NCBI GenBank assembly: GCA_028289065.1 | Contig: JAQGHA010000013.1 | Coordinates: 1 to 64,000, forward strand | Reading direction: 5' to 3' | DNA from: Candidatus Saccharimonadota bacterium | GTDB taxonomy: Bacteria; Patescibacteriota; Saccharimonadia; Saccharimonadales; Saccharimonadaceae | Length of the DNA: 64,000 nt | Shown here: positions 13,295 to 62,934 of the stretch, in pieces | Numbering within the stretch: position 1 is the first letter of the stretch | How the letters are laid out: each line of letters starts with the position of its first letter | The notes under the pieces: generated by a model | The model's input: the letters and a program-made list of their open reading frames with translations, nothing else | What the model was told of the DNA's origin: nothing | Database searches by the model: none | Program-made: the position numbers and the translations under genes

Positions 13295-13567
13295 AGGTAA
13301 GTACTCAAGTGGAGTTACGAGACGAAAACATCAGTAATGGTGTTTTTATTACGCAAACCCTTGTTCGTACTTTTACAGAGTTAGTGATTACGTGTAGCTG
13401 ATAAGGCTTACTGGCAAACCTGCCACATCGATTTCCCACAGACAGGGGGAGTCTTGCAAGAAGCTTTAAACAGTATCGACAACGATGTCGAAGCTGTTTA
13501 CTGAACAATGTGGGGCTCCTCCGCTCATTCCCATTCGAATCGAGTTCACCCGAGGAGGTGAAAACAG

Positions 13568-13723
13568 TTGGCAAGTGCAGAAGAAATTCGCGCCTGGGCG
13601 CAGCAGAAGGCAGAGGGCAAGACCCTCGACTCCTTCCAGCAAGCAGCCGTCGATCGCACCACGTCGCAGGCCGGCTCCGAAGGCCGAGCCGTCACCCGCA
13701 TCCTCGGAGGCGGCAAGGCCTAG
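13568..13723 (+). CDS. 51-residue orphan protein with TTG start
   Basis: An open frame of 51 residues ([20 protein letters not shown] at the start, [12 protein letters not shown] at the end) begins at TTG, seven bases after a full GAGGAGGTG Shine-Dalgarno. Codon use is very GC-rich (GCC, CTC, CGC, AAG), as in the other orphans. It is predicted helical and soluble; no family is recognised. It lies in the loop closed by the 14-base inverted repeat, so translation may depend on RNA folding. An apparent fusion to dus by read-through from 13485 is a different frame and not real. Confidence 0.55.
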
Positions 13724-13764: not shown

Positions 13765-13789
13765 AACCCGCACTATCACTAACTCTGTG

Positions 13790-13836
13790 CGCAACACTCA
13801 TCATGAATTATCGTGGTCGGTGTTGCGTATTTTTTT
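13790..13836 (+). terminator. Terminator of the structured transcript
   Basis: CGCAACAC pairs with GTGTTGCG (13820-13827), followed by TAT and a run of T. Confidence 0.75.
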
Positions 13837-13853
13837 ATGAGATAATAAGAACA

Positions 13854-14881: not shown

Positions 14882-14908
14882 GATGTAGTGCTAGTTGTGC
14901 GAGTAGAT

Positions 14909-15202
14909 CTACTCCACGGTCCCATTCTCGGCAGCATCCAGACCGTCTGCGAAGACGGGCCAGTACGGTACCTGTCCTGCAAAGCGGCTGAGCGGCTGTT
15001 CGGAATCAGAGTGGCTGAACTTGATGTTCTCGTGTCGGATCGGGTGGAGGATGGTCTCGGGATACGTGTGCTCTATCTTGTGGTTTTCGTGTTCCACCAG
15101 GTCGAGCATGCGCTCATCGATCTTCAGCACGGGTGCCGGCTCGATGAACCTCAGGGTTCGAGGCGCGATACCGAAGATCTCATTTTCGCGATCAGTTGAC
15201 AT
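14909..15202 (-). CDS. GC-rich orphan protein
   Basis: A 97-residue acidic protein (MSTDRENEIFGIAPRTLRF start) with no recognised domain or membrane segment. It sits alone between dus and the ATP synthase operon, convergent with dus. The leader of about 90 bases has its own -10 box (TAAAAT) and AAGGAAA before ATG. The leader bases 15217-15225 and 15228-15232 are complementary (9 and 5 pairs) to 14900-14908 and 14890-14894, directly after the stop; the stop itself sits in a 14-base palindrome GAGTAGATCTACTC. Composition differs from both neighbours, consistent with acquisition. Confidence 0.65.
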   Translation of the reverse strand: MSTDRENEIFGIAPRTLRFIEPAPVLKIDERMLDLVEHENHKIEHTYPETILHPIRHENIKFSHSDSEQPLSRFAGQVPYWPVFADGLDAAENGTVE

Positions 15203-15312
15203 GGTTGTTTTCCTTAATCTACTCGGGCTAGCAATGAAAGGTGCATGGAATATTTCTACTCAACAAAAGTAGTAATATTTTAGCATTTAATTGGGTAAAC
15301 GTCAATAAACGG

Positions 15313-26141: not shown

Positions 26142-26162
26142 TTGTTCTTTTTAACCGCTTAG

Positions 26163-26564
26163 CTAGGAGCCAGTGAACCGCTTGCTGGCAACACCCTTGC
26201 GGATGGTAATTTGCTTGTCGCCGTCCGCGTAAATCGTCGCAATCGACAAGCCTTTTTGGCAGCTACCGTAGGCACGATAGACAGTCACACCCCAGCCGGC
26301 TTTGACTTCAATCTTCTCCTCACGTACCAGTAGCGACTGCATTGAACCTTTGCCCGTGTAGGCGTTTTCGACGTAGCGGTTTTCGTAGATGGGTATGAAG
26401 ATGGTTGCGTCCGCTGGCGCGATCGCGATGAGGTTACCGCTTTTGCCGTAGTTGCTTTTGTGTCCCTCGATCCTAATTTCCTGTTTTGGATTGGCCTTCT
26501 TGTAGGCCTCGATGACCGAATCAAGCCAATCCGAAACGTTCACCTTTAATTCCGAAGCGTTCAT
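26163..26564 (-). CDS. Orphan protein of mixed alpha/beta type
   Basis: From ATG at 26564 (AAAGGAT Shine-Dalgarno) the protein has 133 residues: an N-terminal helix (LDSVIEAYKKANPKQ), then alternating strands (NLIAIAPADATIFIPIYENRY; IEVKAGWGVTVYRAYGSC). No family is recognised. TATAAA near 26620 gives a leader of about 45 bases. Leader bases 26582-26594 can pair with 26144-26157, five bases after the stop (7 and 4 pairs around a small loop). It is a moderately GC-rich single gene placed between smpB and xth. Confidence 0.6.
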   Translation of the reverse strand: MNASELKVNVSDWLDSVIEAYKKANPKQEIRIEGHKSNYGKSGNLIAIAPADATIFIPIYENRYVENAYTGKGSMQSLLVREEKIEVKAGWGVTVYRAYGSCQKGLSIATIYADGDKQITIRKGVASKRFTGS

Positions 26565-26668
26565 GATCAATCCTTTAAAGTCGGTGTAAAGAACTTGGCA
26601 TATTTATACCATTTAACACAAAAGCGTACAACATTATCAACCCGTATTCAAGCTGCTATACTTATTGT

Positions 26669-39786: not shown

Positions 39787-39831
39787 GTTGAGCCCCGTCC
39801 TTACGGAGCAAGGCTCAACGTTTAGACGGGG
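39787..39831 (-). other. 3' hairpin or pseudoknot after the 39832 gene
   Basis: GTTGAGCC (39787-39794) pairs with GGCTCAAC (39812-39819), and the overlapping CCCCGTC (39793-39799) pairs with GACGGGG (39825-39831). The second helix starts directly at the stop codon, so the two form either a pseudoknot or alternatives. Confidence 0.6.
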
Positions 39832-40179
39832 CTAGATGTCTTCAAAAAAAGGCAGGTTCGGTTCGGTTTGGTCGAACGACCAACCTTCGAAGTCTCGCAG
39901 GTCTGGCCATGAGTTTGCCATGGATCCATCTTCGAAGAGCAGGGTCATGTTCGCCTGAAGGTTACTGCGCTCAACGGCGTAGGAAATAGTCACGTGCACG
40001 ACCGCGCCGTGACCTTCTGGCACTTCCAGGTTCTCCCAGTTAACGGGACCGTAATGTCCAGAACCAGTGGCTTTCCACGCCACCGAACCGTCTTCGCGCA
40101 GTGCTCCCCAAACCGTTTCCATGTGAGTGTGAATGGTTGCCGATGCGCGGTCAACCTGTACAACCTTAGGTGCGTCCAT
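39832..40179 (-). CDS. GC-rich orphan protein, beta-rich
   Basis: A 115-residue acidic protein; the second of two adjacent ATG codons is preferred, five bases after AGGAG. Alternating strand pattern (KVVQVDRASATIHTHMETVWGAL; AVVHVTISYAVERSNLQANMTLLFED) suggests a small beta barrel or sandwich. No family is recognised. It has its own full promoter on the minus strand and a structured 3' end. GC-rich codon use contrasts with both neighbours. The leader contains TCAACG, complementary to CGTTGA shortly after the stop (weak, 6 pairs). Confidence 0.65.
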   Translation of the reverse strand: MDAPKVVQVDRASATIHTHMETVWGALREDGSVAWKATGSGHYGPVNWENLEVPEGHGAVVHVTISYAVERSNLQANMTLLFEDGSMANSWPDLRDFEGWSFDQTEPNLPFFEDI

Positions 40180-40211
40180 CATATCTCCTATCGTTGATGC
40201 GGACTAATGAT

Positions 40212-40972: not shown

Positions 40973-41019
40973 ATAACTGTCCTTTAAAATCGATTGTCTA
41001 CCTTGGAATAGGAACATCA

Positions 41020-41478
41020 ATGCGCCTCATCACGAATCTGTCATCCGCACAGTTGGAAGTCAACGGGAACACATTGCGACTCGACTGCCAAGCACTTCTA
41101 CTAGAGGGCACGGCGATTGGCAAGGCTACGCCTATCCAGCGCCTTCGAGGTTTCGGCCCCGATTCCGCCTGGCCAGTTTTCAGCCTGTGGCTGAGCTGCA
41201 ACCATCTCGAGTACAAGATGGAGAACGCCGAAAGCGACCAGCTCATCCTGAACAGCGATGTACAGCCGGAGGGTCGTCCGATCTTCAGCGGTGCAACCAT
41301 GAAGTTCGTCGATGGCACCGAGCTGTCCCTACATGCCCAAGATGACGAGCAACCATTCGACATCTCCGACCACGAGGACTACGAGGTTGTCTGGAAAGAG
41401 CTATTTTATAGGTCGGTTAGTTACTACAACGGCCCTAATTTCCCTCTACTCCAATTCGTTCCAAAGTACCTCGTGTAG
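41020..41478 (+). CDS. GC-rich orphan protein
   Basis: A 152-residue soluble acidic protein with strand-like segments (LSSAQLEVNGNTLRLDCQALLLEG; FSGATMKFVDGTELSLHAQ). No family is recognised. It has its own promoter and a leader of about 40 bases. Leader bases 40995-41001 (TGTCTAC) are complementary to GTAGACA at 41475-41481 across the stop codon, and 40978-40982 (TGTCC) to GGACA at 41483-41487, so the two helices are nested. A CGCCCCGC/GCGGGGCG terminator with a T-run follows. Codon use is GC-rich. Confidence 0.65.
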   Translation: MRLITNLSSAQLEVNGNTLRLDCQALLLEGTAIGKATPIQRLRGFGPDSAWPVFSLWLSCNHLEYKMENAESDQLILNSDVQPEGRPIFSGATMKFVDGTELSLHAQDDEQPFDISDHEDYEVVWKELFYRSVSYYNGPNFPLLQFVPKYLV

Positions 41479-41491
41479 ACACGGACATCCC

Positions 41492-53914: not shown

Positions 53915-54099
53915 CATCCCTCCAATCTTTTTTGGTAAAAACGAATGATGACACGATCAACTGCGGGCTGGTGTTAAGTAGCCTTAAAAATTCCTCTCAA
54001 CTCTGCTCGTAATGTTCGAGTTCCGGATAATTCAACAAAACTAGGTGATATTATGGCATATTTCTTGATTTTATTCAATACGGTACAATAGAAGCAGTT

Positions 54100-54669
54100 A
54101 TGAAACTACTTTTTGCTCAAGGAAATCCCGGTCGCCAATATGCGCGCACTCGTCACAATACTGGCTTTATTGCCCTTGATGCTTTAGCAGAGGCGCAAGG
54201 TGGCACTTGGCGGACTCAAGAGAAGTTCCGAGCGGACATTGCCGAAATTTCATTACAAGGCGAAAAAATACTTCTAGTTAAGCCGTTGTCTTTCTACAAT
54301 GAAACCGGCCAAGTAGCTCGTGGCTTGGTTGATTTCTACAAACTGAACATCGCCGGGGACGTCCTTGTTATTCATGATGAGCTCGCCTTACCGTTTGGTA
54401 CCATTCGAGTGCGCGAAAAGGGGAGTGATGCTGGTAACAATGGCATTAAAAGTTTGAATGCCCACCTAGGTCAAAGTTACGCTCGTATTCGCATCGGTAT
54501 TTGGAATGAGCGACGCGATAGTATGAATGACGCGGATTTTGTATTAAGCGCATTTTCGGAAGAAGAAATAAAGCAGCTCCATCAACTTATCGAAACGAAA
54601 ATTACCGAACTTATTGAAGCCTTTGTAAAAGGCGACCTGGAGCCAGTCAGCCATACACTCGAGGCATAA
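54100..54669 (+). CDS. pth: Peptidyl-tRNA hydrolase
   Basis: A 189-residue enzyme that frees tRNA from stalled peptides. Motifs: LFAQGNPGRQYARTRHNTGF (catalytic His in HNTG, near residue 20), KPLSFYNETG, VIHDELALPFGTIRVREKGSDAGNNGIKSL and RIRIGIWNE. Length is normal. TACAAT at 54084-54089 predicts a leader of about four bases. Confidence 0.97.
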   Translation: MKLLFAQGNPGRQYARTRHNTGFIALDALAEAQGGTWRTQEKFRADIAEISLQGEKILLVKPLSFYNETGQVARGLVDFYKLNIAGDVLVIHDELALPFGTIRVREKGSDAGNNGIKSLNAHLGQSYARIRIGIWNERRDSMNDADFVLSAFSEEEIKQLHQLIETKITELIEAFVKGDLEPVSHTLEA

Positions 54670-54719
54670 CGAGCCTATGCTTGCACCAGATCGTCTTTTA
54701 TCGCATACTTACTGCTAGT

Positions 54720-54765
54720 TTTCGGTCGAGCTGACCACACCGCAGTCAGACTCCCGAAAAGGTAG
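54720..54765 (+). other. Hairpin in the leader of the 54790 gene
   Basis: TTTTCGG pairs with CCGAAAA and GAG-CTGAC with GTCAG-ACTC inside it. The gene lacks a clear promoter, so it may be read from pth through this structure. Confidence 0.6.
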
Positions 54766-54789
54766 TTTGACAGAACATTGGAGTAAGTT

Positions 54790-55224
54790 ATGGGGAATAA
54801 GCTAGAACGAGTACTGCTGATCGACGATGTCGTTGAGGCGATCAAAGCGTTCATCCCTCGCACACCGAATACGGTCCATTTTTACCTGCGAAGGCAAAAA
54901 ACCGTGACTGTGAGCAGCCTGATTCTGGGCCGCCCGAAGAAGAAGGTGGTGTACGTACACGAGCACATCGAAGCTTCCGAAGTCGGCTGCACACATGACG
55001 ACTACCACCTGCACATTACCGTCTACATCGACAAGCGGCCCAACAAGGAAAACCGCTGCTTCATCCTGCTGGTAGTTCCCTACAGGCAGAGTAAGGTCAT
55101 CGAGCTGAACCGTGAGTCGCTGATTAAGATGAACGCGAAGCAGCTCAAAGCGATTCGTAACCTGCTAGCAGGGAAGCCCACGGCCAGTACCTCGGAAGCA
55201 GAAGTAGCCACAGTCGCCGCCTGA
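54790..55224 (+). CDS. GC-rich orphan protein
   Basis: A 144-residue basic protein with alternating strands (ERVLLIDDVVEAIKAFIPR; KVVYVHEHIEASE; YHLHITVYIDKRPNKENRCFILLVVPYRQ) and a C-terminal helix. No family is recognised. Shine-Dalgarno GGAGTAAG. Codon use is GC-rich with nearly all Lys as AAG. No leader-stop complementarity of six or more bases was found, so it is an exception in its class. A strong terminator follows. Confidence 0.65.
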   Translation: MGNKLERVLLIDDVVEAIKAFIPRTPNTVHFYLRRQKTVTVSSLILGRPKKKVVYVHEHIEASEVGCTHDDYHLHITVYIDKRPNKENRCFILLVVPYRQSKVIELNRESLIKMNAKQLKAIRNLLAGKPTASTSEAEVATVAA

Positions 55225-55256
55225 ACCTTGCATCGCCCCATCTCCATCTGAAAAAC

Positions 55257-55290
55257 AAAACCCCCCGCTCTAAGTAGAGCGGGGGGTTTT
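55257..55290 (+). terminator. Rho-independent terminator
   Basis: AAAACCCCCCGCTC pairs with GAGCGGGGGGTTTT; fourteen base pairs. Confidence 0.93.
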
Positions 55291-55305
55291 CAAATATTAT
55301 TTCTA

Positions 55306-55690
55306 GGTACCAGGTAAGGGTGGGCATCACCTGGCACCAATTTACCCTTTAACCCACCCAGGAATGTTCGAGTGAAGCGTCGCGACCGATAAAATAAATA
55401 TGGAGCGCGCCTGATTGAATCTCGCAGAGGACAATCACTACTGTATAGTCACTGATGAACATTCCTTTAATTGGGAGTCCAGTTCTACTAATAAATTAAC
55501 AGAAAGGGCGTTAAAGGGATTAGTAAACACGCAAGGCTGTCAAGATTAATCTAAGCTTAGAAAGTGGAGGGTATTTACTTTAGAAGCGCCTTGCATGCTA
55601 CCTAACATAAGCAGTACAATAAATTGTACTACCGTTAGAAATAGGGGGTATAAGGTGCTTGATATAGCTATATTGCTGTATCAATCGTTT
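55306..55690 (+). ncRNA. Candidate structured noncoding RNA
   Basis: A 430-base region without ORFs is densely complementary. GGTACCAGGT (55306-55315) pairs with ACCTGGCACC (55329-55338), and its loop GGGTGGG (55318-55324) pairs with CCCACCC (55353-55359), an H-type pseudoknot. AGGAATGTTC (55360-55369) pairs with GAACATTCCT (55457-55466). GCAAGGC pairs with GCCTTGC further on, and TTGATATAGC with GCTGTATCAA (55659-55684). TATTAT at 55295 could be the -10 box. RNase P, tmRNA and SRP signatures were not found. Confidence 0.5.
55613..55630. promoter_or_regulatory. 18-base perfect palindrome upstream of dprA
   Basis: AGTACAAT, AA, ATTGTACT. It could be an operator or a hairpin within the candidate RNA. 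Confidence 0.5.
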
Positions 55691-55741
55691 TGAAGTATAG
55701 CACTTTGTTGACTTAGTGTCAATACTTATTTTAGGGTAAAC

Positions 55742-56602
55742 ATGAAAATCATTAATATCAATAGAGAAAGTATAGTAAGCGAAAGCTTTTTATCACCCCT
55801 GTTACAGCTAGCAAAAATACCAGAAAATTTGTACATAAAAGGGAATTTACCAGTCTTAAGGCAACCAGTTGTCGCCATAATAGGCACGCGCCGTCCAACA
55901 CCCTACGGGCGAGAAGTAACACAAACATTGGCCACCGATTTAGCCCGAAGCGGGGTAGTGGTGGTCAGCGGTTTAGCTGCCGGTATCGATACTATTGCTC
56001 ATACCGCCACACTTGAGGCAGGCGGCACCACAATCGCCGTTTTAGCCCAAGGGCTACATAGTGTATACCCAGCATCCAACCGGGGCTTAGCCGACCGCAT
56101 AAGCAAACATGGCGCCCTTATTACCGAGTACGATACTGGTGTTGATGCTTTGAAACATCACTTCTTAGCACGCAACCGGATTGTAAGCGGGTTAGCAGAC
56201 GCCGTTATTGTTACCGAAGCCGCAGATCGCAGCGGCACCTTTTCGACCGTGGCACACGCCCTGGAGCAGAATAAAGAGGTGTTTGCTGTGCCTGGACCGA
56301 TTACAAGTTTGTTATCAGCGGGGCCAAATAGGCTATTACAGCAAGGTGCGCATGTAGCCTTATCTGCCGATGACATATTAAATGTCATTGCACCGCATTT
56401 AGTAGCCGGGCAACGAAAGTTTGTGTTTGGAAATACACCCTTAGAAGTAAGGATTATTGAATTAATTCAGCAGGGTGTGCGAAGCGGGGATGAGTTACTC
56501 GCGAAGTCTGAAGCTAGCGCCAGTGAGTTCATGGAAGCGATGACGATGATGGAACTGAACGGCACCGTTCGCGCACTCGGCGGTAACCAGTGGACTATAT
56601 AA
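55742..56602 (+). CDS. dprA: DNA-processing protein DprA
   Basis: A 286-residue protein that loads RecA on incoming single strands during transformation. The Rossmann-like core is clear: VVAIIGTRRPTPYGREV, VVVSGLAAGIDTIAHTATLEAGG, AVLAQGLHSVYPASNRGLA, FLARNRIVSGLADAVIVTEAADRSGTFSTVAHALEQ and VFAVPGP. A C-terminal winged-helix-like domain (residues about 225-286) is present and the N-terminal SAM domain is absent. It supports natural competence together with the pilin. Its upstream region is unusual and structured. Confidence 0.96.
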   Translation: MKIININRESIVSESFLSPLLQLAKIPENLYIKGNLPVLRQPVVAIIGTRRPTPYGREVTQTLATDLARSGVVVVSGLAAGIDTIAHTATLEAGGTTIAVLAQGLHSVYPASNRGLADRISKHGALITEYDTGVDALKHHFLARNRIVSGLADAVIVTEAADRSGTFSTVAHALEQNKEVFAVPGPITSLLSAGPNRLLQQGAHVALSADDILNVIAPHLVAGQRKFVFGNTPLEVRIIELIQQGVRSGDELLAKSEASASEFMEAMTMMELNGTVRALGGNQWTI

Positions 56603-56612
56603 GGTAATATTG

Positions 56613-56618
56613 TATAAT
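56613..56618 (+). promoter_or_regulatory. -10 box of the 56658 gene
   Basis: TATAAT, so the transcript starts near 56625, the first base of a stretch complementary to the end of the gene. Confidence 0.65.
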
Positions 56619-56657
56619 TCGCAGAGGACTTTCGTACATCAATAGATTGGGACCTTC

Positions 56658-57053
56658 ATGAATGATGAAAGAAGTACACTTGACAAGCTCGACTTTGGTG
56701 TCGGGCTGGCGGCAGGACTAGTACTACGAGGTGAAACAACGATTAACGAGCGGAACCTCGCGGTACTGCATGAATCCTTCCTCGAAGCCTTCAAAGTTGT
56801 CGAGACTCAGCTCGACCACGACAACCTCCGGTTTGCCATCATCCTCCACAGGGTGCACCGCACCAGCACTGATGTGTTCAACATCATGAGCTACTGGTTG
56901 GGGTTATGGGCAACCAGAGATGCGCCCGGCACTATCTACAGGTTCAGAATGGACGAAGAGAGTGCCGAGAAGCTACTAGCCAAACTGCCCGGCGGCCGAC
57001 AGATGTTCCTGGACGCAGCCGACGCCTTCTTGTTGCGCTACCGCAACACCTAA
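56658..57053 (+). CDS. GC-rich orphan protein, helical
   Basis: A 131-residue helical protein (NERNLAVLHESFLEAFKVVETQL; FNIMSYWLGLWATRD; EESAEKLLAKLPGGRQMFLDAADAFLLRY). No family is recognised. The predicted mRNA start GGACTTTCG (56626-56634) is exactly complementary to CGAAAGTCC (57055-57063), which begins two bases after the stop. The Shine-Dalgarno is weak (GGGACC). A GGCCGCCACA/TGTGGCGGCC hairpin follows. GC-rich codon use, between dprA and topA. Confidence 0.65.
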   Translation: MNDERSTLDKLDFGVGLAAGLVLRGETTINERNLAVLHESFLEAFKVVETQLDHDNLRFAIILHRVHRTSTDVFNIMSYWLGLWATRDAPGTIYRFRMDEESAEKLLAKLPGGRQMFLDAADAFLLRYRNT

Positions 57054-57069
57054 CCGAAAGTCCACCCAA

Positions 57070-57094
57070 GGCCGCCACATTCTGTGTGGCGGCC
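57070..57094 (+). other. 10-bp GC hairpin after the 56658 gene
   Basis: GGCCGCCACA, loop TTCTG, TGTGGCGGCC. No T-run follows directly. Confidence 0.85.
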
Positions 57095-57262
57095 CTTAAC
57101 TTTTACAACGCTTTATATATGTAGCTGCCGAGAAGGGGTAATGCTTAATTTAATAGATACTTTACAAATGATAGTAATTTGTATAAACTCAGGCCTTGTG
57201 TTTAGCTAATACACGATTCGTCACATAAAAATATAAGAATAGAAACGTACAATAGAATATAT

Positions 57263-59656
57263 ATGAGCAAGAATTTAGTTATCGTAGAGTCCCCAGCAAA
57301 AGCTAAAACCATCGAGAAGTATCTCGGTAGCGACTTTACTGTACTCTCAAGTGTAGGTCATATTCGTTCTATCGCTAAAAAAACCAAAGACGGCACACCT
57401 CCAATCGATGTTAGCAACAACTTCAACACTACTTACGAAGTCGATGTTGAAAAGAAAAAAACAATTACCGAGCTGAAAAAAGCAACAAAAATTGCCGAGC
57501 AAGTCTGGCTGGCAACCGATGAAGACCGCGAAGGCGAAGCAATTGCTTGGCACCTCTGTGAAGTGTTAGGCCTCGACCCTACAAAAACCAAGCGAATTGT
57601 TTTTCATGAAATTACCAAAACGGCAATTGAAGAGGCGGTCAAAAACCCTCGTACCGTTGATATGGAATTAGTCCAAGCTCAACAAGCCCGTCAAATTTTA
57701 GACCGTTTGGTTGGTTTTGAGCTTAGCCCTGTTATCTGGCAAAAAGTTCCCGGCGGTAAATCTGCTGGCCGCGTACAATCACCAGCCGTGCGTTTACTCG
57801 TCGAGCGTGAACGCGAAATTCAAGGCTTCGAAGGTTCATTCCAATTTAAAGTTACTGCTGAATTTACCCAAAGTGGTGAAACCGTTAAGGCTGAATTGCC
57901 ACAACGCTTTGATACCGAAGAAGAAGCTCAAAGCTTCCTTGATTCTTTGAAAGACGCTACCTTTAGCGTTTCGGATGTTACTACTAGCCCTGGTACCCGT
58001 AACCCTGGCGCACCATTTACTACCAGTACCCTTCAACAAGAAGCCAACAGCAAGCTTAGCTTTGGTGCTCGGGCAACCATGAGCAGCGCTCAAAAGCTGT
58101 ACCAAGAGGGTAAAATTACCTACATGCGTACCGACTCTAACACCTTAAGCGGCCAGGCAATTGCTGCTGCCGCTGATTATATTAAGAGTGCTTTCGGTGA
58201 AGAATATTCACAAGTTCGTCAGTTTAAAACGAAATCATCCAGCGCTCAAGAAGCTCACGAAGCCATTCGCCCAACTGATATGTCTGCCGAGCGGGGGAGT
58301 TCTAATGAATACGACCAAAAGCTCTACGACCTTATCCGTCGCCGTACCTTAGCCAGCCAAATGGCTCCGGCTAAACTTGAAAAGACGGTTGTGACAATTA
58401 CTATTAGTACCTCTAATAAAACCTTTGAAGCCAAGGGTGAGGTTATTATATTCCCTGGTTTCTTAAAAGTGTATGGCGCTGGTAAAAAAGACCCTGATAT
58501 TCTTCCGGCTATGTCAACTGGCGATTCCTTACAGCTGGAACATGCTGACGCCCGCCAAACTTTTGCCCGTCCACCAGCTCGCTTTACCGAAGGTTCTTTA
58601 GTGAAAAAGCTTGAAGAGCTTGGCATCGGCCGGCCATCAACCTATGCCACTATTATCAATACTATTCAAGTCCGCGATTACGCCGAAAAGGGTGAAGGCG
58701 AAGGCGACGAACGTGATGTTATTACTTTAGGTGTTACACCAGGTAACGATGTTGTTCGCGAAGTCGTGAAAGAAAAAACCGGTGCCGACCGTGGCAAATT
58801 AGTACCAACCGCTATCGGTATGATGATTAGCGACTTCTTAACTGAACACTTTGAACAAATTGTTAACTTTGGCTTTACCGCTGAAGTAGAACAAGACTTC
58901 GACCAAATCGCCACCGGCGCTTTAGCTCGTAACGTTATGCTTGATAAATTCTACCAACCCTTCCATAAACTCATTGAAGGCGCTGGCGACATTGACCGCT
59001 CGAAAGTTGCGCAATCGACACCTATTGGCACCGACCCTAAGTCCGGAAAAATGATTTACGCCCGCTTCGGTCGTTTTGGCCCAATGCTGCAACTTGGTGA
59101 CACTGAAAGTGAAGAAAAACCGACCTTCGCGCCAATGCCAAAAGGTTCACGTATCGAAACAGTTACCCTCGACGAAGCCTTAAGGGCGTTCCAATTACCA
59201 CGCCTTGTAGGCGAAACTAAGGACGGCCTACCAATTAAAGCCAATATTGGTCGTTTCGGTCCTTATATTCAAGTTGATAAACTTTTCGTCAGCATTAAAC
59301 CACTCGACCCGCACGACATTACCCTCGAACAAGCCCTTGAAGTGTACGCGGAAAAGTTAAAAACTGAAGCTGAAAAGAATATCTCTGACTTCGGTGATGG
59401 TATTAAAGTATTAAATGGTCGCTACGGTCCATATATTACTGATGGTAAAAAGAATGCTAAAATTCCTAAAACCCAAAAACCTGAAGAAATTACCCACGAA
59501 CAAGCCAAGCAAATGCTCTCCGATGCACCCGCTGCGAAAACCAAAGGTCGGTTTGCGAAACGTACCACTACAAAGAAACCTGCAGCTAAAAAGACGGCGG
59601 TTAAAAAAGCCACAAAGCCTAAAACTGTTAAAGCGACACGGACTGTTAAAAAATAG
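57263..59656 (+). CDS. topA: DNA topoisomerase I
   Basis: A 797-residue type IA topoisomerase: TOPRIM motif VIVESPAKAKTIEKYLG at the start with ATDEDREGEAIAWH near residue 90, active-site Tyr287 in ITYMRTDSN, and the GRPSTYATII segment. The C-terminal part has topoisomerase C-terminal repeats (GRFGPMLQLG, GRFGPYIQV, GRYGPYITDG) rather than zinc ribbons, and then a Lys/Ala-rich tail (KRTTTKKPAAKKTAVKKATK). TACAAT at 57248-57253 predicts a leaderless mRNA. Confidence 0.98.
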   Translation: MSKNLVIVESPAKAKTIEKYLGSDFTVLSSVGHIRSIAKKTKDGTPPIDVSNNFNTTYEVDVEKKKTITELKKATKIAEQVWLATDEDREGEAIAWHLCEVLGLDPTKTKRIVFHEITKTAIEEAVKNPRTVDMELVQAQQARQILDRLVGFELSPVIWQKVPGGKSAGRVQSPAVRLLVEREREIQGFEGSFQFKVTAEFTQSGETVKAELPQRFDTEEEAQSFLDSLKDATFSVSDVTTSPGTRNPGAPFTTSTLQQEANSKLSFGARATMSSAQKLYQEGKITYMRTDSNTLSGQAIAAAADYIKSAFGEEYSQVRQFKTKSSSAQEAHEAIRPTDMSAERGSSNEYDQKLYDLIRRRTLASQMAPAKLEKTVVTITISTSNKTFEAKGEVIIFPGFLKVYGAGKKDPDILPAMSTGDSLQLEHADARQTFARPPARFTEGSLVKKLEELGIGRPSTYATIINTIQVRDYAEKGEGEGDERDVITLGVTPGNDVVREVVKEKTGADRGKLVPTAIGMMISDFLTEHFEQIVNFGFTAEVEQDFDQIATGALARNVMLDKFYQPFHKLIEGAGDIDRSKVAQSTPIGTDPKSGKMIYARFGRFGPMLQLGDTESEEKPTFAPMPKGSRIETVTLDEALRAFQLPRLVGETKDGLPIKANIGRFGPYIQVDKLFVSIKPLDPHDITLEQALEVYAEKLKTEAEKNISDFGDGIKVLNGRYGPYITDGKKNAKIPKTQKPEEITHEQAKQMLSDAPAAKTKGRFAKRTTTKKPAAKKTAVKKATKPKTVKATRTVKK

Positions 59657-59663
59657 TCATATA

Positions 59664-59692
59664 TTGACTTTTAAAGGTGTTTATGCTATTAT
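59664..59692 (+). promoter_or_regulatory. Sigma-70-type promoter of the 59809 gene
   Basis: TTGACT, 17-base spacer, TATTAT with TGC before it, eight bases after the topA stop. The leader is about 110 bases and contains the hairpin GTTGCC/GGCAAC. Confidence 0.8.
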
Positions 59693-59808
59693 ATCAGCGT
59701 TAAGTCTTGCCAAGCGTTTACGCTACAAAGCTTTGGCCCTTAAACCTTAACTGTTATCCAAGCAGTTTTTCCGTTGCCACCTGGCAACCCAAACGAGAGA
59801 AGTGAACC

Positions 59809-60564
59809 GTGAACAGCATGCGTAAGGTAGTACCCGCGTTTATCGTGGCAGTCGCCCTGGCAGTCGGCCTGACAGGCTGCACCAGCGGATGGTTCAGCGA
59901 AACCGTCGAACCTGAGTCCAACTACCCAACGGTCGAACCTTCGATGGAGGCGGTGTACGTCAACCCGAACACCGGCCTCATCACGAAGTACATCGGCTAC
60001 GAAGGCGAAGTCCTGTTCAACCAGGGCTACTCCAAGGTGGATCTCAAGAGCCGAATTTTCGGCAACGAGATCTCTCCCGCTTCTTCAATGGCGATCTACG
60101 AGACCGTCGAAGTTGAAGGAAAGTCGTACCCGGTCGTTTCAACTCTGCAATGGGACAACCTTCCGACGGCCACCGAGCTGGTCACGTACTACAACGAGCA
60201 CATCGCGAAGAGTACGCCGAACCTGCCCGACATCCTTAAGGGGTATTCGGTCAGTGGGATGGTTACCCGTTACATACACGGCGAGGTCACATCAGCAATC
60301 AGCAGTGGTACGCTGCCCAAGATTCAGTACAGCCTGACTGAACAGTCGTCGGTGAAATCCGACGCGCGCGTCGCGCAGCTCCAAGCCGATAGTGTTCCCG
60401 CCTGGGCGGCCTACAAGGAGCTCAACGGTTCTGTCGATCCAGGAAGGCAGTATCACTATTCGTACTACTGCGGCATGTACTCTGTTCAATCCAACGCCGA
60501 TGAGATGCTCGCTGCCTTGAATGCCCGTTTCGCGGGCAGCGGAACTCACTTCACTGGACTGTAG
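59809..60564 (+). CDS. GC-rich orphan lipoprotein
   Basis: A 251-residue protein with signal peptide MNSMRKVVPAFIVAVALAVG and lipobox LTGC (Cys24), so the mature protein is lipid anchored outside. Start is GTG at 59809 with GAGAGAAG before it; ATG nine bases later is the alternative. The mature part begins with an acidic Pro-rich stretch and then a domain with VYVNPNTGLITKYIGYEGEV and RQYHYSYYCGMYSVQSNA; it somewhat resembles stomatin/band-7-like surface proteins, but this is weak. Nine of ten lysines I counted are AAG, unlike core genes. AAGTCT near the mRNA start is complementary to AGACTT across the stop. Confidence 0.7.
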   Translation: MNSMRKVVPAFIVAVALAVGLTGCTSGWFSETVEPESNYPTVEPSMEAVYVNPNTGLITKYIGYEGEVLFNQGYSKVDLKSRIFGNEISPASSMAIYETVEVEGKSYPVVSTLQWDNLPTATELVTYYNEHIAKSTPNLPDILKGYSVSGMVTRYIHGEVTSAISSGTLPKIQYSLTEQSSVKSDARVAQLQADSVPAWAAYKELNGSVDPGRQYHYSYYCGMYSVQSNADEMLAALNARFAGSGTHFTGL

Positions 60565-60878
60565 ACTTCACAGATGATGCTTGTCGAGACCGCGCAACCC
60601 TGCGAGGTTCTCGATGATGTTCAGCAGCCTGTGAAGGACCCCAGCATGGATGTGTCCCCGTTCTAGAACAGGGAACCACAGGAGGGCATGGATAATTAAA
60701 TAACGAGCTTTAAGGGAAAGGGACGGTAGCAATACCGCCCCTTTTTCATGACTCGACATAATAAAGAAGTGTTTTATAGAGCCATATAACACCACATCTG
60801 TGGATAACTAAAAGCCTCACAACACACTGTACAAACCCTGTCTACTATATGCTATAATTGATTTAATATATAAAGTCT
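60565..60878. other. Intergenic region after the lipoprotein gene
   Basis: Bases 60565-60690 keep GC-rich composition and hold a hairpin (TCGAGA 60584-60589 with TCTCGA 60609-60614) and a 30-codon frame (60574-60666) without a Shine-Dalgarno, which I do not call. The rest is AT-rich and leads to the promoter at 60879. Confidence 0.5.
60719..60747 (+). terminator. Terminator with GCAA tetraloop
   Basis: GGGACGGTA, loop GCAA, TACCGCCCC (one mismatch), then five T. Confidence 0.85.
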
Positions 60879-60907
60879 TTGACATTATCGATATAATCTT
60901 ATATAAT
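60879..60907 (+). promoter_or_regulatory. Perfect consensus sigma-70 promoter
   Basis: TTGACA, 17-base spacer, TATAAT: all twelve consensus positions. It lies 65 bases before the HARE-HTH gene. Confidence 0.9.
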
Positions 60908-60971
60908 GATGTTAACAATATATAGAATCTAAATACCTGTAGTTTGGTGAAAAGAAAGAAAAGAATACACA

Positions 60972-62024
60972 ATGGCCGATACTGCAACCGAAACGAAACA
61001 AATTGACCTGAAAACTGGGGTGAGTGATATCATCGCCCTCATCGATCAAGAACGAGAACGTGAAATTATTACACGTCGTTTTGGACTCTACGACCGTCGC
61101 GAGACGCTTGAACAAATTGGTGAACTGCTTGGGATTACCCGAGAACGTGTTCGTCAGCTTGAAAAAGCAATCTTAATACGTCTAAAAATAGCTGCCGAAA
61201 ATGGCAAAACAGATGCTGTTTCACAACTGGAAAAGGTGTTCATTCGCACTTTAAGCGAAATTGGCCGTGCTGCCCGCACCCAAGACCTTGCCGATAAAAT
61301 TTATGGCAAAGCCACTAACCAACAAGAGCGTGCTCACGTTGCTTTCATTGCAACTTTAGCCCCAGGCTTAACCACTCTTGATGAAAATGACAATTACTTC
61401 CAAGCGGTAACTATCGCTGATTACGGTGATGAGAAAAAGCTCAAAGGCCGAGTGGATGAAATCGTGGCAACCGTAAAAGAAGCTGGCGTTCCACAAAGCG
61501 TTGACCAACTTTTCGACAAGCTCAATTACGAAAACCCACTTCAAGTTAGCGCCCTTGCGAGCATCAGCAAGCAATTAGCTCACCTTAAAGATTCTTGGGG
61601 TCTTACCAAATGGCCAACCGTTAACCCTAAAAATATTCGTGATAAAATTTACGTTATTCTTGCGGATAACAAAAAGCCTATGCACTTTTCTGAAATTGCC
61701 AAGTCAATTAAGGGAAGTACTTTCAAGCGTAAAGACGTTACTACTCAAGCCATTCACAACGAGCTCATCAAAGACAAGCGCTTTGTGCTTATTGGCCGTG
61801 GAATTTATGCCCTCGATAACTGGGGTTACAGCAAAGGTACCGTTAGCGACATCATTTCAAGTGTTTTGAAAGATGCCAAAGAACCATTGCACCGCGATGA
61901 AATCGTCAAACGTGTTCTTAAAAGCCGTCAAGTAAAAGAAACAACTATTCTTTTAAACTTGCAAAGCAAAGCTCAATTCAAACGTGTAGCTAAAGCTACC
62001 TACATTTTAGCTGACGAAGCGTAA
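60972..62024 (+). CDS. Sigma region 4 / HARE-HTH transcription protein
   Basis: A 350-residue protein. Residues 20-75 (REREREIITRRFGLYDRRETLEQIGELLGITRERVRQLEKAI) match sigma-70 region 4, which binds the -35 element. There is no region 2, so it cannot act alone as a sigma factor. Residues 215-345 contain one or two HARE-HTH domains (KIYVILADNKKPMHFSEIAKSI; ISSVLKDAKEPLHRDEIVKRVL), related to RNA polymerase delta. It probably binds RNA polymerase and DNA as a global regulator. Its promoter is the strongest by consensus in the window. Leader-stop pairing was not seen here. Confidence 0.85.
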   Translation: MADTATETKQIDLKTGVSDIIALIDQEREREIITRRFGLYDRRETLEQIGELLGITRERVRQLEKAILIRLKIAAENGKTDAVSQLEKVFIRTLSEIGRAARTQDLADKIYGKATNQQERAHVAFIATLAPGLTTLDENDNYFQAVTIADYGDEKKLKGRVDEIVATVKEAGVPQSVDQLFDKLNYENPLQVSALASISKQLAHLKDSWGLTKWPTVNPKNIRDKIYVILADNKKPMHFSEIAKSIKGSTFKRKDVTTQAIHNELIKDKRFVLIGRGIYALDNWGYSKGTVSDIISSVLKDAKEPLHRDEIVKRVLKSRQVKETTILLNLQSKAQFKRVAKATYILADEA

Positions 62025-62169: not shown

Positions 62170-62934
62170 ATGACCGACACAAGCAAGCAGACTCACTACG
62201 AGAAACTTGGTGTGGCACGAGATGCTACAACCGAGGAGATCAAAAAGGCTTTCCGCAAATTAGCTCGCGAATATCACCCCGACAGGCTTACTCATTTATC
62301 GGCAACTGATCCCACGAGAATTGATGCGGATAAGAAGATGAAACAGCTCACCCAAGCCTACGACGTACTCAGCGATACAAACAAACGCCGTGCCTACGAC
62401 CTAAGACCAATAAGCGACATACCGCCACTTTTTACAAATGCTCGTCCAGACGATGGATACGACCATTCGGAATATCTGCAGGAACACAGAAGAATATACG
62501 CCGAACAACTGCGCCGAGATGTAGAGATAAAATCCGCAGACAAGCGTGTTCGAACCAGCACTTTGTTCAAGATGTTTTGGTTCATATTGCAATCTACCCG
62601 AATCATGAAATGGGTGACAATAGGATGCCTAATAAGTGTATTCGTCATATCGTATACGGCCGGAGATAACGTTGGTGCATTCATTTTCACGTCTTCATCA
62701 CAGCCTGAAAGTAATAGTGCATTGCCAATCTTCACCGGCTTTGCCTTTGTGCTTTTAGGTGGGATTGTTCAGTTTATTTGCCAGTTTTATATAAGCGTGA
62801 TGGTTGCGTTACATGCAGTAATGCCGTTGCCCTCTGTAAATAGTTTGGTGCAACTACAGCGAAGTGTCTCGGCGTGGACATATATCATACCCTGGTTCTT
62901 TAGTGGACTAGTAGTAGGTAGTTTGCTTTTCTAG
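62170..62934 (+). CDS. DnaJ-domain membrane protein
   Basis: A 254-residue protein. The J domain (residues 9-77) has EKLGVARDATTEEIKKAFRKLAREYHPDR with the HPD motif at 36-38, so it should stimulate a DnaK-type chaperone. The rest has three hydrophobic segments (WVTIGCLISVFVISYTAG, LPIFTGFAFVLLGGIVQFICQFY, YIIPWFFSGLVVGSLLF) and anchors it in the membrane; there is no Gly-rich or zinc region. Shine-Dalgarno TTGGAG. Its predicted mRNA start CTAGAAAAGC (62108-62117) is exactly complementary to GCTTTTCTAG (62925-62934), the last codons including the stop. Confidence 0.88.
   Translation: MTDTSKQTHYEKLGVARDATTEEIKKAFRKLAREYHPDRLTHLSATDPTRIDADKKMKQLTQAYDVLSDTNKRRAYDLRPISDIPPLFTNARPDDGYDHSEYLQEHRRIYAEQLRRDVEIKSADKRVRTSTLFKMFWFILQSTRIMKWVTIGCLISVFVISYTAGDNVGAFIFTSSSQPESNSALPIFTGFAFVLLGGIVQFICQFYISVMVALHAVMPLPSVNSLVQLQRSVSAWTYIIPWFFSGLVVGSLLF

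Follow-up and report, generated by a model that had tools for sequence, protein, structure and literature searches.

In a class of foreign-looking orphan genes of Saccharibacteria, the segment just upstream of the start codon is complementary to the segment at the stop codon far above chance, and this complementarity recurs, with other arm sequences, beyond the genome in which it was first detected. On balance, we favour the reading that these genes are moron-like units whose mRNA forms a start-to-stop helix that does not occlude the Shine-Dalgarno sequence. We analysed a stretch of 64,000 nucleotides (the window) from a 933-kb Candidatus Saccharibacteria genome (17 contigs, 97.8% complete), together with the rest of this source genome and with related genomes.

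Start-to-stop complementarity across gene sets

A sequence-only reading of the window had proposed that the leaders of many single orphan genes are complementary to their own stop-codon region. Over all called genes the proposal fails, as swapped leaders are equally strong: for the 304 genes called in the first 300 kb, with wide search windows, the longest leader/stop run is 6.05 for a gene's own partner and 6.01 for swapped partners. Genes were taken from a purpose-built caller, which in this first look overlooked many orphans owing to their unusual composition. A second look, with narrow search windows, covered 300 kb of the source genome and took ATG-initiated ORFs that lie outside confident genes and span at least 60 aa; here the longest run was 4.77 for own and 4.38 for swapped partners, and the reverse-only and complement-only controls were flat. 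With windows fixed beforehand, pairing in gap ORFs exceeded that of swapped partners in 380 kb of unseen sequence from the same genome (z 3.7, 0/60 swaps), and in this narrower form the proposal holds.

The signal is confined to GC-rich gap ORFs. Such ORFs gave z 3.5 in a TM7i genome (G008; CP075337), analysed before the pre-set species test, and in species not used before, the pre-set GC test (at least 0.04 above genome) gave z 2.7 in G014, 1.1 in G001 and 3.3 in 67 topA-neighbourhood loci; the corresponding high-GC gap-ORF sets of the Saccharibacteria genomes G012 and G013 showed no signal. We defined a refined class as intergenic ORFs of at least 80 aa without homologs, with an intrinsic terminator and a CDS that exceeds the genome GC by at least 0.02 (137 genes from seven Saccharibacteria data sets), and compared leader positions −45 to −1 with the segment from stop−3 to +18. 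The longest run is 5.12 versus 4.43 for swaps (z 8.7), a value reached by 0/10,000 within-genome swaps. Leaving out the discovery genome gives a score of 5.9 (N = 104), and keeping only the sets fetched once the GC hypothesis stood gives 5.2 (N = 69); a stricter class (orphan, terminator, GC at least 0.04 above genome, at least 80 aa; N = 114) gives z 8.0, with runs of at least 6 bp in 42 versus 12.9 genes. The class limits (orphan, terminator, GC +0.02, at least 80 aa) were sharpened stepwise on pooled data once the first results were in, so the cleanest figures are the z values of the pre-set tests. Perhaps a quarter to half of the class genes carry such complementarity; in over half of the refined class no pairing is detectable.

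Terminators and lack of homologs mark the genes that carry the signal. Specifically, GC-rich gap ORFs reach z 6.4 with an intrinsic terminator versus 2.4 without, core genes with a terminator reach z 0.7, GC-rich terminator genes with homologs reach z −0.6, and in gap ORFs with homologs no pairing is conserved. In a similar pipeline, neither the genes nor the small ORFs of Escherichia coli K-12 give a signal; a slightly positive small-ORF value in the first 250 kb was gone with 450 kb. The relation to operon ends was examined in 14 tandem orphan pairs. The orphan units look foreign (GC3 0.65 versus 0.46; TGA stops 35% versus 8%), their terminators have a median of −19.7 kcal/mol versus −12.8 kcal/mol in core genes, and their proteins have a median of 137 aa and a GRAVY of −0.21. 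They are lodged between conserved core genes, in a gene order common to about 60 Saccharibacteria loci. Homologs of the orphans were absent from 16 congeneric genomes, except for 56658 in G008. A PHROG scan of ten class matches gave a strong match only for a thymidylate synthase fragment (L013:2410), which was dropped as a class example since its start is internal.

Phage morons are single genes of foreign composition, with their own promoter and terminator, lying between conserved genes. Like them, an orphan unit is a single gene with its own terminator and foreign composition between conserved genes; unlike them, the orphan units are chromosomal and, judged from the ten scanned matches and the core-gene neighbours of 56658, not in phage or prophage, and 56658 has no PHROG match. 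To our knowledge, no 5′–3′ pairing has been described for phage morons.

Several regions were recorded alongside. At positions 54100–62024 of the window, the core order 54100-55742-TopA-60972 is conserved in Saccharibacteria, and gaps of 30 to 3900 bp hold species-specific orphans. Leader/stop direct repeats are mildly enriched too among low-GC gap ORFs of the source genome (z 2.8–3.0). A cluster of ORFs with a GC content 0.12–0.19 above genome (G001:C1:382580–396707) is either an island or contamination. At C6:123479–129780 of the source genome (L141:3479–9780), ten copies of a repeat of about 45 bp (AAGTTCGAAGCTCGTCCACTAGGGGCTGCCAAGCA...) are placed immediately after consecutive ORFs (NUDIX, ATP-grasp, C39-like and orphans); the arrangement is like a cassette array, no integrase was recognised in the ORF in front, and the repeat fold is unlike attC.

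Arm pairs in the window and the 56658 unit

All nine arm pairs listed by the sequence-only reading are present in the window, seven of them ungapped (14/14, 10/10, 9/9, 9/9, 13/15, 9/10 and 7/7), while those at 26582 and 1313 need gaps (8/13 and 7/16). Its 15 genes beat swaps (p 0.0002), but they had been hand-picked by eye. Individually the listed pairs are no evidence, because the number of inverted repeats spaced 200–1000 bp apart in the window is what a Markov-2 null predicts for each length, and the all-gene test is flat. The author of that reading saw a real signal through a biased sample.

The showpiece among the listed pairs, the 14/14 match at 13375/13775, cannot be assigned to any ORF with coding support and is compatible with chance, one 14-mer inverted repeat being seen in the window versus 0.33 expected under the Markov-2 null. 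A small ORF (13568–13723, 51 aa) lies inside this repeat pair, behind GAGGAGG. The segment 13286–13838, between UvrD-like and Dus genes, combines a promoter-like site, the 14-bp inverted repeat and two 3′ hairpins, has no match in 40 related genomes, and is perhaps a structured RNA or a tiny gene; an Rfam scan of the window returned tRNAs only. Other examples fit poorly: the gene at 62170 encodes a DnaJ-domain protein and has its 3′ arm inside the CDS, and the arm at 54003 lies about 90 nt upstream of its own gene's start. Orphan 14909–15202 was unused by the unbiased caller because the opposite-strand ORF is longer. For orphan 41020–41478, 10.3 closing pairs are expected in the full transcript.

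Table 1. Arm pairs and associated features of orphan units in the window
Feature	Position	Strand	Remarks
−10 box TATAAT	56613–56618	+	from sequence; predicted +1 about 56625
5′ arm GGACTTTCG	56626–56634	+	−32 to −24 of start codon; 9/9 with 57055–57063
Orphan ORF, 131 aa	56658–57053	+	GC 0.54 in a 0.44 genome
3′ arm CGAAAGTCC	57055–57063	+	+2 to +10 past stop
Intrinsic terminator hairpin	57068–57096	+	from sequence and fold; directly behind 3′ arm
5′ arm GTTCTTT	26588–26594	−	orphan 26163–26570
3′ arm AAAGAAC	26144–26150	−	orphan 26163–26570; terminator directly behind arm
5′ arm TGTCTA	40995–41000	+	orphan 41020–41478
3′ arm TAGACA	41476–41481	+	orphan 41020–41478; arm begins at stop codon
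5′ arm GTACCC	732–737	−	orphan 160–714
3′ arm GGGTAC	153–158	−	orphan 160–714
5′ arm TCAACG	40192–40197	−	orphan 39832–40182
3′ arm CGTTGA	39815–39820	−	orphan 39832–40182
5′ arm	15217–15225	−	orphan 14909–15202; 9/9 match
3′ arm	14900–14908	−	orphan 14909–15202
14-bp perfect inverted repeat, 5′ copy	13375–13388	+	not leader of a supported gene
14-bp perfect inverted repeat, 3′ copy	13775–13788	+	adjoins hairpin with T-run, about 13786–13838

The 56658 unit has chromosomal core genes as neighbours, and its arms are predicted to be paired, with the message closed, in both the MFE and the centroid structure. The ORF has no match in Pfam, PHROG or PADLOC, and its distant homologs occur in G008 only. 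There, a homologous two-gene operon in front of topA (G008:C1:531605–532616) carries a different arm pair, CTATCAAC/GTTGATAG (8/8), after the last stop, together with a second leader/3′ match, CGAACCT/AGGTTCG, that cannot nest with it.

Position of the arms and alternative readings

Of 176 window combinations tried across a position grid, only the leader from −40 to −1 by the stop region from −3 to +15 stands out (z 6.0; whole grid, mean 0.10, sd 1.03). Seven-base matches cluster with the 5′ arm at −35 to −21 and the 3′ arm at −4 to +9. Upstream of predicted start sites there is no complementarity signal, and on the 3′ side the signal peaks directly before the terminator stem (z 6.4) and is z −0.3 inside it. 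The signal is limited to the spacer from start site to ribosome-binding site and the spacer from stop to terminator stem. The earlier suggestion that the loop hides the 5′ end is not quite accurate: even where the distance to the predicted +1 exceeds 45 nt, the 5′ arm stays at −40 to −15 of the start codon, indicating that it is anchored to the start codon and not to +1.

Full predicted transcripts close with a probability of at least 0.8 in 35 of 118 genes, versus 11.5 for chimeras with swapped 3′ ends. Between the two explanations offered by the sequence-only reading, an mRNA loop is better supported than mobile inverted repeats, though the hidden 5′ end does not quite fit. The pairing excess is slightly larger in sense than in antisense, by 0.68 pairs (CI 0.02–1.33). 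Among one-wobble helices in sense, the broad class has 7 versus 2.0 with G·U and 2 versus 2.0 with A·C; in the refined class G·U is no clearer than other mismatches, and RNAduplex z values are alike on both strands (sense −3.75, antisense −3.09). From the position of the arms and this weak strand asymmetry, we infer that the pairing acts in the mRNA. In predicted-closed genes, the unpaired probability of the Shine-Dalgarno sequence is 0.402 with the 3′ UTR versus 0.415 without (p 0.12).

Pairing in the mRNA could also serve inhibition. The 5′ UTR of icaR mRNA of Staphylococcus aureus pairs with the 3′ UTR, whose motif covers the Shine-Dalgarno sequence and makes an RNase III substrate (PMC3868564), and complete hok/aapA type I toxin mRNAs are closed by a long-distance helix between the 5′ and 3′ ends (PMC6733600). 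The orphan class resembles icaR in having complementarity between the 5′ and 3′ UTRs of one mRNA beyond chance, and hok/aapA in having a helix predicted to close the complete mRNA; a fold-back keeping the complete mRNA untranslated until processing would share this geometry. icaR is a single conserved regulator gene whose 3′ UTR is long and whose Shine-Dalgarno sequence is hidden, whereas the orphans are many unrelated genes with short spacers, and their predicted Shine-Dalgarno accessibility barely shifts. The hok/aapA messages carry small toxin ORFs, with an antisense antitoxin and an occluded Shine-Dalgarno sequence; the orphans encode medium-sized soluble proteins, not small hydrophobic toxins, and show no sign of occlusion. 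Such inhibition is very unlikely here. Autoregulation in trans is unlikely, to a lesser degree: a small RNA from the 3′ end, with the 3′ arm as seed followed by the terminator, would pair with the leaders of sister mRNA copies, as do OppZ and CarZ, autoregulatory sRNAs from 3′ UTRs that use RNase E and Hfq (PMC7398697). As in those systems, terminator-adjacent sequence is complementary to the gene's own mRNA; the 3′ arm lies directly before a strong terminator and the 5′ arm near the ribosome-binding region. However, the Shine-Dalgarno sequence itself is not targeted, and no match to RNase E/G (PF10150) or Hfq (PF17209) turned up in the genome, which is 97.8% complete; control searches elsewhere were positive.

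At the DNA level, the arms could be short inverted repeats that bound orphans which are, or once were, mobile or invertible, or a by-product of the origin or insertion of the units. The strict Watson-Crick blocks with abrupt ends, the small strand asymmetry of duplex energies and the foreign composition of the units are consistent with this. Against it, the arms are internal to the unit, between its predicted start site and its terminator, their sequences are not common to the units, and other position pairs in the grid show no excess. Furthermore, compared with other Saccharibacteria, the insertion at the 56658 locus (one locus, judged from diverged relatives) comprises promoter, ORF and terminator plus about 60 nt, and ends about 100 bp past the 3′ arm. 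Because the segment also holds promoter, terminator and further sequence, the arms are not its ends, as terminal inverted repeats of a mobile unit would be; the sequence-only reading's alternative of a mobile or invertible unit is thus disfavoured, and we regard a DNA-level origin as quite unlikely. Least probable is a residual artefact of ORF selection, local composition and post-hoc class limits. The class was refined in steps, and the direct-repeat control is positive in gap ORFs of the source genome (z 2.8–3.0), mainly in low-GC ones; in the high-GC class, however, direct and reverse controls are near zero (complement up to 2.4), and the single-cell specificity of the grid, the within-genome permutations, none of which reaches the observed value, and the E. 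coli null all speak against it.

A probable closed message for foreign orphan genes

In the start-to-stop helix that we favour, a single foreign orphan gene with its own terminator, lodged between core genes, would act as a moron-like transcription unit, and its 5′ UTR just upstream of the Shine-Dalgarno sequence would pair over 6–13 bp with the spacer between stop and terminator. Once the 3′ end is made, the two spacers would form a helix beside the terminator hairpin, closing the message and setting the stop beside the start with the Shine-Dalgarno sequence left free. The most likely effect would be that complete messages are shielded from the RNase J route of decay, and re-initiation by hand-over from stop to start may also be favoured. 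The source genome encodes two RNase J proteins (C10:82381–82674 and C10:90606–90911).

For a few single bacterial genes, end-to-end pairing of the mRNA has been described; the literature searched contained no account of it as a feature shared by an entire gene class. We propose, tentatively, that a short RNA helix, specific to each gene, clamps start to stop in the messages of a whole class of foreign orphans while the Shine-Dalgarno sequence stays open; these bacteria would thereby have a protein-free counterpart of the eukaryotic closed-loop mRNA. The pairing is directly testable in cultivated Saccharibacteria. If true, it would offer a way to approach many unannotated orphan genes from sequence alone, and would tie the horizontal acquisition of genes to the architecture of their mRNA, clade-wide, in an epibiont lineage in which neither RNase E nor Hfq is detectable.
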